In this document: positions 42,406 through 43,698 of the stretch, piece after piece
Layout of the letters: each line of letters starts with the position of its first letter
Numbering within the stretch: the stretch's first letter is position 1
Origin: Echinicola pacifica DSM 19836
GTDB lineage: Bacteria; Bacteroidota; Bacteroidia; Cytophagales; Cyclobacteriaceae
DNA length: 64,000 nucleotides
Reading direction: 5' to 3'
Assembly: GCF_000373245.1 (NCBI RefSeq)
Contig: NZ_KB890738.1
Coordinates: forward strand, 124,001-188,000
Translations under genes and position numbers: made by a program
The notes under the pieces: model-generated
Database searches by the model: none
What the model saw: the letters and a program-made list of their open reading frames with translations, nothing else
Told to the model about the DNA's origin: nothing

Positions 42406-42866
42406 CTATTAAACAATATATATTAAAGCAGCCTCTATTTTACAATAGTAAAAAAATAGGCCCTCGTATTCTTCGTCAAACTTGTATTTATCCTTCCCTG
42501 CACTAAGCGCATTACTATAGTCTCACGACCAATAATATTACCTCTGCTCAGTCTCCATACTAAATATACACATATTAGTTCTAGTTGAATGCCTCTTAAC
42601 AAAAGTCATACCCGAAAAATCATGAAACTGGTCGAATTTCACTCTCTAATACGCCCTCACCGCTGATTCCCCTATCTCACTGCTCATCTGAAGATCTTGT
42701 CCATCAATAAAAAGACTGATTATTACAGGTCCAGTATTGATGTCATTGCTAGAAATTATAGAACCCCTTGATTTCAAAAAAACAACCCGGAGAAATTAAG
42801 TAGATGGAGGTATTTAAAATAGCTTGGCAAGCAGGATCGCAAAAGTCAGGGGTTATAAAAACAAAA
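42406..42866. other. Intergenic stretch with no recognisable element
   Basis: About 460 AT-rich bases between the AsmA-like gene and the first tRNA-like RNA. No open frame above 60 codons, and no clear repeat or hairpin. Confidence 0.5.
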
Positions 42867-42909
42867 AAGAACAATCTTAGGCTTAATATAAGCGACTAAA
42901 ATTGTTCTT
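42867..42909 (-). terminator. Intrinsic terminator of tRNA-like RNA 1
   Basis: A long hairpin: AAGAACAAT (42867-42875) pairs with ATTGTTCTT (42901-42909), and the inner bases continue pairing (TTAG/CTAA, GCTTA/TAAGC). On the minus strand a T-run follows. The hairpin starts nine bases after the 3' end of the RNA structure. Confidence 0.8.
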
Positions 42910-42917
42910 GATTATAG

Positions 42918-43041
42918 CTGTAGGAGAAGGACTCGAACCTCCACGGAGAAGTTAGGCAACACAAGAGCTCTATGTGTGCTTTATCCAATAATCTCCACCC
43001 CCGAGACAGGAGGGCTTGTCTGCCAATTTCAACATCCTACA
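42918..43041 (-). ncRNA. tRNA-like RNA 1: class II tRNA-like body with oversized variable arm, anticodon position reads GUC
   Basis: 124 bases. Acceptor-like stem TGTAGGA/TCCTACA (7 bp), U8-G9, a Leu-type D-arm (TTGAAATTGGCAGACAA), anticodon arm CCCTC-CTGTCTC-GGGGG (one G-U pair), a variable region of about 54 bases closed by GGAGA/TCTCC with an inner stem GCACACA/TGTGTTGC, T-arm GGAGG-TTCGAGT-CCTTC, and G at the discriminator position. CCA is not encoded. The anticodon reads GUC (Asp codons) but base 37 is U, which is unusual. Normal Leu/Ser variable regions are about 11-24 bases. A terminator follows at once. It could be an odd tRNA, a decayed tRNA or a tRNA-derived regulatory RNA. Confidence 0.6.
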
Positions 43042-43073: not shown

Positions 43074-43081
43074 CAAAGGTA
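43074..43081 (-). promoter_or_regulatory. Possible -7 element for tRNA-like RNA 1
   Basis: Minus-strand TACCTTTG fits TAnnTTTG and lies 32 bases before the RNA 5' end. Nineteen bases upstream there is TTTT in place of TTTG, so the -33 element is imperfect. Confidence 0.4.
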
Positions 43082-43554: not shown

Positions 43555-43585
43555 AGTCAATTAACAATAAACCCAAAATAACCTG

Positions 43586-43698
43586 TTGTAAGAAAAGGAC
43601 TTGAACCTTTCAGAGCGTTGTGCTCGCCATTTGCGTCTAGCGCCTTACAATTCCTGAATCGTAAAGGAAATCTTCTACTTCCTCTTGATTACCCTACA
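43586..43698 (-). ncRNA. tRNA-like RNA 2, paralogue-like to RNA 1, degenerate anticodon arm
   Basis: 113 bases. Acceptor-like TGTAGGG/TCTTACA (7 pairs, two G-U), D-arm-like ATC-AAGAGGAAGTAGAA-GAT, anticodon-arm-like TCCTT-TACGATT-CAGGA (one mismatch; centre CGA, but A instead of U33), a variable region of about 41 bases, a canonical T-arm AAAGG-TTCAAGT-CCTTT and A at the discriminator position. Competing fold: TTGTAAG within the variable region pairs perfectly with CTTACAA at the 3' end. The promoter at 43697-43726 would start transcription inside the 5' acceptor strand, which favours the competing fold. So it may be a regulatory RNA with a T-arm rather than a tRNA. Confidence 0.5.

Follow-up and report, generated by a model that had tools for sequence, protein, structure and literature searches.

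In a stretch of 64,000 nucleotides (nt) from Echinicola pacifica DSM 19836 (NZ_KB890738.1, positions 124,001-188,000), which we analysed as a whole and call the window, the minus strand harbors a tRNA-like RNA of 125 nt at 42917-43041; coordinates count from the first letter of the window. The RNA, which forms a cloverleaf and comprises positions 1 to 74, scores 130.6 bits with the covariance model R1 that we built from 46 diverse copies, and it is practically certain that it represents a real and conserved RNA family. Its sequence unites the signature of an aspartyl-tRNA synthetase (AspRS) substrate with that of a GatCAB substrate, in the absence of decoding features. We regard it as probable that the RNA is a dedicated, functional but non-decoding tRNA for the synthesis of asparagine, loaded by AspRS and then serving GatCAB as the substrate for amidation. 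The wider proposal is about an even bet: the RNA would serve as a coenzyme-like carrier for free asparagine under the control of an AsnC-like regulator, it would substitute for asparagine synthetase across much of the Bacteroidota, and it would have been acquired by large phages.

Structure and conservation of the RNA family

The 5' strand of the acceptor stem (TGTAGGA with U1 and G2; 43035-43041) forms seven pairs with TCCTACA (42919-42925), and the pairs U1:A72 and G2:C71 are present in 113/113 distinct rows of our alignment. T8 separates it from the Leu-like D-arm TTG-AAATTGGCAGA-CAA (43016-43032), which was assigned by alignment and by comparison with the tRNAs of the genome. The anticodon arm CCCTC-CTGTCTC-GGGGG (42998-43014; 99.1% of the cells paired) carries G34, U35 and C36 at 43005-43007, and its loop is identical with the tRNA-Asp loop CTGTCAC of the genome except for U37. 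The long variable region of about 55 nt (42943-42997) starts from the V stem GGAG/CTCC (42993-42996 with 42945-42948; 99.3% paired) and contains a conserved internal loop GGATAAA ... CTAAC around a hairpin of variable length (42951-42986), whose loop-adjoining pair varies between GC, CG and UA. The T-arm GGAGG-TTCGAGT-CCTTC (42926-42942) is paired in 100% of the cells and is followed, beyond the 3' strand of the acceptor stem, by the discriminator G73 and an encoded C74 (42917-42918). C74 is also encoded in the ordinary tRNA genes of the genome as printed by ARAGORN and is hence not special. Rereading of the minus strand thus bears out the initial annotation of this stretch, which had described a tRNA-like RNA with a 7-bp acceptor stem, U8, a Leu-type D-arm, the T-loop TTCGAGT and a long variable arm.

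The fold of the single window sequence is unexceptional (z -0.61, 59/200 shuffles equally good), as is that of the GGATAAA/CTAAC motif (z -0.06), and therefore the comparison across copies decides. In alignment A5 (82 hand-picked loci, 113 distinct rows), which was fitted to the model and is hence biased towards it, 94.5% of the cells of the 29-pair structure are standard pairs and double-sided changes occur at 19/29 pairs; none of 500 shuffles reaches any of five measures, and pairing drops to 51-62% in slid structures. A2, a plain MAFFT alignment, shows the same picture. Ten partial or edge copies were dropped from one copy set, and the loci L064-L067 were omitted there and from the neighbor count as repeats. 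Pairing reaches 99-100% in the stems of the acceptor, anticodon and T-arm and in the V stem, and covariation is found in all arms of the cloverleaf. Within the variable arm, solid support is confined to the V stem and to those pairs that lie above the motif, which may bind a ligand or a protein; beneath it, the short helix is paired in 61.7% of the cells. The initial annotation had proposed to look for compensatory changes in the variable arm, and the V stem provides them with double changes at three of its four pairs.

Conservation in relatives, another property that it had suggested to examine, is evident as well. The genome of E. pacifica contains three further copies at other places (four in total; 93, 88 and 83% identity), and a BLAST search with one copy retrieved matches in 76/98 relatives, E. 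pacifica included. Model R1 was run on 395 sampled Bacteroidota genomes with eight candidates scored per genome and strict filters, so that missed copies are possible; it detected matches of 88.8-130.6 bits in 40/395 genomes, often several copies in each, and a match of 77 nt with 70.8 bits in genome G071. All remaining genomes score 63.6 bits or less, and the five weaker hits that we fetched are all ordinary tRNA-Leu genes. An exact conserved block occurs in at least 119 stretches; among the matches listed are 80 named records, all from Bacteroidota according to their titles, including Cyclobacteriaceae, Saprospiraceae, Chitinophagales, Flammeovirgaceae and others. The copy set comprises 298 copies (262 distinct), for which full-length profile matches were required, so that the 77-nt member is uncounted and conserved ends are favored. 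The loci are partly redundant, with 70-nt flanks identical to another locus in 52/298 copies, and this also applies to the survey of 184 loci, 55 of which harbor at least two copies in one cluster.

Intergenic noise is ruled out by the covariation, and the decayed tRNA-Leu that the initial annotation had kept as its dull alternative is excluded by conservation, covariation and copy number. ARAGORN reported neither a tRNA nor a tmRNA in the 64-kb window. With Rfam, nothing in the window reached the gathering score, and no tRNA match was obtained near the RNA at E up to 10. This widespread family has been overlooked by both resources. Two sub-threshold Rfam matches on the opposite strand, RefA9 and STnc210, were rejected.

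The 77-nt member of G071 (L223 2038-2114, minus strand) lacks the long variable arm, retains the acceptor signature and U35, C36, U37 and C38, and is called tRNA-Asp(atc) by ARAGORN. It suggests that the acceptor and the anticodon loop represent the functional core.

Identity elements and the link to GatCAB

Identity elements were counted at 96 loci that had been selected without use of the anticodon-loop pattern; of their 134 distinct copies, three are broken by inserts and 131 are unbroken. U1, G2, C71, A72, G73 and C74 are invariant (134/134), and position 3 is T in 133 copies and C in one. U35, C36 and C38 are present in all 131 unbroken copies and G34 in 125/131. The available text of PMC9976931 lists G73, G10, G34, U35, C36 and C38 as bacterial Asp determinants and G1-C72 and G2-C71 as conserved; compared with this list, all published Asp elements except G10 and G1-C72 are kept. 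The Asp identity of G73, C38 and G2:C71, which had been noticed in the window copy, is thus a property of the family. U37, which the initial annotation had flagged together with position 10 as atypical, is family-wide too (U in 127 and C in four unbroken copies, a purine in none), and U33 is absent in 41/131 (T90, G26, A9, C6).

The first pair U1:A72 is shared with the tRNA-Asn of the genome, and according to the available part of PMC4206432 it is U1-A72 of tRNA-Asn that is recognized by bacterial GatCAB. Among the 12 tRNAs of the E. pacifica genome compared, tRNA-Leu(GAG) has the most similar D-arm, with 16 of 20 letters identical. The mixed tRNA identity postulated in the initial annotation has accordingly been substantiated with a Leu-like D-arm, an Asp loop with U37 and an Asn-like U1:A72, and it is the key to the proposed role. 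Neither U1:A72 nor the further copies had been part of the earlier reasoning.

The layout of the family is that of an elongator tRNA (cloverleaf, T-loop TTCNA, T8, GG in the D-loop), but the combination of U33 with a purine at position 37 is lacking. A73 and a Leu anticodon, which define tRNA-Leu, are absent (G73 in 134/134), there is no G3:U70 as in tmRNA, and the helices are arranged as 7+5 and not as an acceptor branch of 12-13 bp, which takes the 8/5 or 9/3 form in tRNA-Sec and allo-tRNAs. With tRNA-Leu(GAG) of the same genome the RNA shares the sequence of the D-arm and T-arm and the class II layout, whereas that tRNA has A73, G1:C72, a GAG anticodon and a short variable arm, and scores 53.5 bits with R1 compared to 130.6 bits for the RNA. 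The genome holds two ordinary tRNA-Asp(GUC) genes with the loop CTGTCAC; they agree with the RNA in the loop CTGTCnC, G2:C71 and G73, and differ in A37, G1:C72, G10 and a short variable loop.

Since U1:A72 is the pair recognized by GatCAB, we predicted a link to gatB and then tested it in 80 genomes. The 41 genomes with the RNA (RNA+) are all 40 strong-match genomes plus G071 with its short variant. The 39 genomes without it (RNA-) were hand-picked out of 354, all from the same class, so that the phylum's other classes are not represented; they are the negatives of families f23, f24, f25 and f28 to f31 plus 19/40 of f26. Nine of them were rescored with 150 candidates each, and none exceeded 52.5 bits. 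The gatB gene is present in 41/41 RNA+ and in 1/39 RNA- genomes. The sole exception, G138, is also the sole RNA- genome without a match for glutaminyl-tRNA synthetase (GlnRS), and a less filtered search of it returned tRNA-level matches only (50.9 bits and below). Asparaginyl-tRNA synthetase (AsnRS) was found in 80/80 genomes and a GlnRS match in 33/41 RNA+ and 38/39 RNA- genomes; among those with both enzymes, gatB occurs in 33/33 RNA+ versus 0/38 RNA- genomes. Within families f23 and f24, it is absent from 5/5 RNA- and present in 18/18 RNA+ genomes. The co-occurrence of RNA and gatB is thus exact in the compared genomes once GlnRS is accounted for, and the link is strong but correlational. 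At E up to 1e-50, a GlnRS match is lacking in E. pacifica itself, whereas 71/80 of the compared genomes have one.

At E up to 1e-150, the AsnB equivalog (NF006949) was detected in 0/41 RNA+ and 32/39 RNA- genomes, and one further RNA- genome, G150, lies just under this threshold. AsnA was detected in 4/41 and 8/39, respectively. Both are missing in 37/41 RNA+ genomes, but 36/41 keep an AsnB-like protein above the TIGR01536 cut-off. In five RNA- genomes (G150, G114, G211, G138 and G142), AsnA is absent and NF006949 stays below the threshold. Two of these, G114 and G211 of family f24, are without a match to gatB, AsnA, the AsnB equivalog and the asnC-like profile, and are perhaps asparagine auxotrophs.

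An AsnC/Lrp-type gene lies nearby at 71/184 loci of the neighbor survey, upstream and divergent in 70 of the 71 cases. In 29/41 RNA+ genomes (families f1, f11, f13, f23, f24 and f67) an asnC-like gene is located upstream in divergent orientation with a gap of 121-213 bp; six asnC-like loci fetched from the 12 RNA+ genomes without such a neighbor contained no RNA copy. The best NCBIfam model for the one neighbor tested is AsnC (169 bits, cut-off 227) versus 55 bits for Lrp, and the asnC-like gene of E. pacifica reaches 167 bits with the AsnC model. The asnC gene of E. coli is transcribed divergently from asnA, which is controlled by AsnC. A comparable arrangement was seen in one case, RNA- genome G150, where 118 bp separate the asnC-like gene from a divergent AsnB gene.

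Proposed role and alternative explanations

According to the published identity rules, AspRS would load aspartate onto the RNA via the Asp anticodon loop and G73, and GatCAB, drawn by U1:A72, would convert the bound aspartate to asparagine. An Asn-charged GUC tRNA would put asparagine at Asp codons, and for this reason the RNA must not decode; the missing U33 and the missing purine 37 may well keep it off these codons. Asparagine would then be released by a putative further step, from where it could feed AsnRS and metabolism, and the AsnC-like regulator would switch the RNA gene by the asparagine level. Both the non-decoding argument and the release of asparagine are inferred.

An aminoacyl-tRNA dedicated to a task outside translation has a counterpart in the non-proteinogenic tRNA-Gly of staphylococci, which supplies glycine to peptidoglycan. 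It resembles the proposed carrier in its exclusion from translation and differs in its peptidoglycan role and the lack of an amidotransferase step. Allo-tRNAs and tRNA-Sec are distinct in that they decode, have acceptor branches of 12-13 bp and carry other anticodons. Like the RNA, they are natural molecules with an odd cloverleaf and a long variable arm, as described in the available part of PMC7609411. The closest functional parallel in the accessible text of PMC4206432 concerns Bdellovibrio, Legionella, Deinococcus and Thermus, where AspRS and GatCAB make asparagine on a U1-A72 tRNA in the presence of AsnRS and without an asparagine synthetase. In these Bdellovibrio-type systems the carrier is the decoding tRNA-Asn and the AspRS is non-discriminating, whereas here it would be an RNA of its own, which has the anticodon loop of tRNA-Asp and features unsuited to decoding. 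Alperstein et al. (PMC4206432, in the part available) report 18 genera from several clades, Bacteroidetes included, with AsnRS, GlnRS and GatCAB but no asparagine synthetase, and propose that they synthesize asparagine on tRNA-Asn; for such bacteria the RNA would represent a different carrier. The searched literature, which leaves most subscription papers aside, contains no description of the RNA. If the proposal is correct, it would explain why GatCAB is kept beside AsnRS and GlnRS in many Bacteroidota without an ordinary AsnB, and the RNA would clearly exemplify how a tRNA can become a cofactor of metabolism. Bacteria wrongly predicted to be auxotrophic for asparagine could then be reassessed.

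Several observations weigh against this proposal. Position 10 is A in 70, T in 55 and G in nine of the 134 copies, so that, in line with the oddity noted in the window copy, A or U occupies it in 125/134 and the Asp determinant G10 is mostly absent. G1-C72 of tRNA-Asp, which according to the available text of PMC9976931 helps to place the 3' end within the AspRS of E. coli, is replaced by U1:A72 in 134/134 copies. Eight of the 41 RNA+ genomes, E. pacifica included, have no GlnRS match, and their GatCAB has another job. Some of the RNA+ genomes encode AsnA, and AsnB-like proteins above the TIGR01536 cut-off are found in 36/41, again including E. pacifica; another source of asparagine is therefore possible. 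The open frames of this level measure 571-717 amino acids among those listed, that of E. pacifica (598 amino acids) is located between an HhH-GPD gene and a glycosyltransferase gene, and five RNA+ genomes (G412, G245, G069, G087 and G361) have neither a TIGR01536-level protein nor AsnA. The asnC-like gene of E. pacifica (C13:482748) adjoins no RNA copy, and asnC-like genes, mostly weaker, also occur in 35/39 RNA- genomes (E up to 1e-30), so that only their position ties them to the RNA. The p-values of the co-occurrence ignore phylogeny, the RNA- set was chosen by us from one class, and some of its members could be misses of the strict candidate scoring. Alternatively, GatCAB could act on the ordinary tRNA-Asn if AspRS were non-discriminating, by analogy with Bdellovibrio. 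Finally, we know of no release step for asparagine from such an RNA.

Among the alternatives, the least improbable, though still unlikely, is a regulatory RNA that binds AspRS, the AsnC-like protein or GatCAB as a sensor or decoy, and thereby signals the Asp/Asn status without net asparagine synthesis. Such a role agrees with a stand-alone gene that has its own promoter element and terminator and lies divergent from a regulator gene, with the presence of several copies and with the conserved internal loop of the variable arm; yet it predicts neither the near-absence of gatB where the RNA is missing nor the lack of the ordinary AsnB where it is present, and the acceptor end is invariant. A metabolic adaptor fits the gatB link, the absence of AsnB and the asnC-like adjacency better. 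We give slightly less credence to a donor function, in which the RNA would pass aspartate or asparagine to a non-ribosomal acceptor such as a cell-wall peptide, a lipid, a protein N-terminus or a natural product. Non-decoding aminoacyl-tRNAs with roles of this kind exist, as the staphylococcal tRNA-Gly exemplifies, and a FadD-like acyl-CoA ligase gene lies downstream of the RNA in 27/86 neighbors scanned (86 chosen from 134, similar length first), but the Pfam families listed (25 of 46) include no aminoacyl transferase that recurs at several loci, and the absence of AsnB as well as the asnC-like gene would be left unexplained.

Three further explanations are far less credible. GUC at the anticodon position, the normal T-loop and the location of RNA copies beside or inside phage tRNA arrays would suit an ordinary though odd tRNA for Asp codons, which is highly improbable in view of the two ordinary tRNA-Asp(GUC) genes that E. 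pacifica already has, the pyrimidine 37 throughout and the frequent lack of U33; if amidated by GatCAB, it would moreover misread Asp codons as Asn. Charging by seryl-tRNA synthetase as a class II tRNA with G73 deserves equally little weight: the bacterial Ser determinants C72 and C11-G24 given in the available text of PMC9976931 are mostly absent (A72 in 134/134, T11 in 123/134), and a family member without the long arm exists. It would be just as surprising if the RNA were a transamidosome scaffold that brings AspRS and GatCAB into one complex, with ordinary tRNA-Asn as the molecule they act on. The identity elements would be the same, and complexes of aminoacyl-tRNA synthetase, tRNA and amidotransferase are known (PMC9976931, available part), but this scenario needs an AspRS able to charge tRNA-Asn, and the invariant U1:A72, G73 and C74 exceed the needs of a scaffold.

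Genomic context, phage copies and variants

Putative expression signals flank the RNA gene of the window on the minus strand. The element TACCTTTG (43074-43081), located 40 nt upstream of the RNA, resembles the -7 promoter consensus of Bacteroidota, and TAnnTTTG is found within 70 nt upstream of 129/262 distinct copies, compared to 10.65 on average when the letters are shuffled. An intrinsic terminator with a U-run (42862-42909, hairpin 42909-42867) is predicted at -17.9 kcal/mol (z -6.6, 0/200 shuffles as good). The initial annotation had thus rightly assigned a terminator of its own to the RNA; its hairpin begins 7 nt past C74 and not nine. A simple terminator scan had no hit at 42909-42867 and picked up only the terminator (43554-43526) of a decayed tandem copy on the same strand (43585-43698). 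The latter retains the conserved 3' tail and scores 22.8 bits with R1, a level that ordinary tRNAs also reach. No open reading frame (ORF) of at least 50 amino acids overlaps the RNA, which is flanked by an ORF of 1443 amino acids and one of 381 amino acids that is RluD-like by eye. A mobile element was not seen; the neighbors are unrelated and the window copy has no plasmid match. In L288 (4249-6438), a SufBD-like gene downstream of the asnC-like gene of E. pacifica is similar at the DNA level to genes beside the RNA loci of other families, though here the RNA is no longer its neighbor.

The RNA is also present on eight predicted phage contigs of IMG/VR, some of them near-identical, and on one uncultured phage record of 636 kb (103-113.5 bits), which makes its spread by phages conceivable. 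The phage copies include L301 3168-3319, L302 7301-7452, L303 6705-6848, L308 3001-3144 and others. One to 14 ordinary tRNA genes lie near the RNA in the phage pieces read, and five of ten proteins beside the phage copies match phage protein families while the other five match none. Two phage copies were searched, one of which had no matching phage record.

At L015 1674-1986 and L063 1670-1838, copies of the RNA are broken in the D-arm or anticodon arm by a short palindromic insert of the CCCGATAGCTATCGGGA type, possibly a small palindromic mobile repeat. In L076, L092, L106, L121, L133 and others, the hairpin of the variable arm contains a conserved GGGTTGACCAC block; this subtype is distributed over several families and phages.
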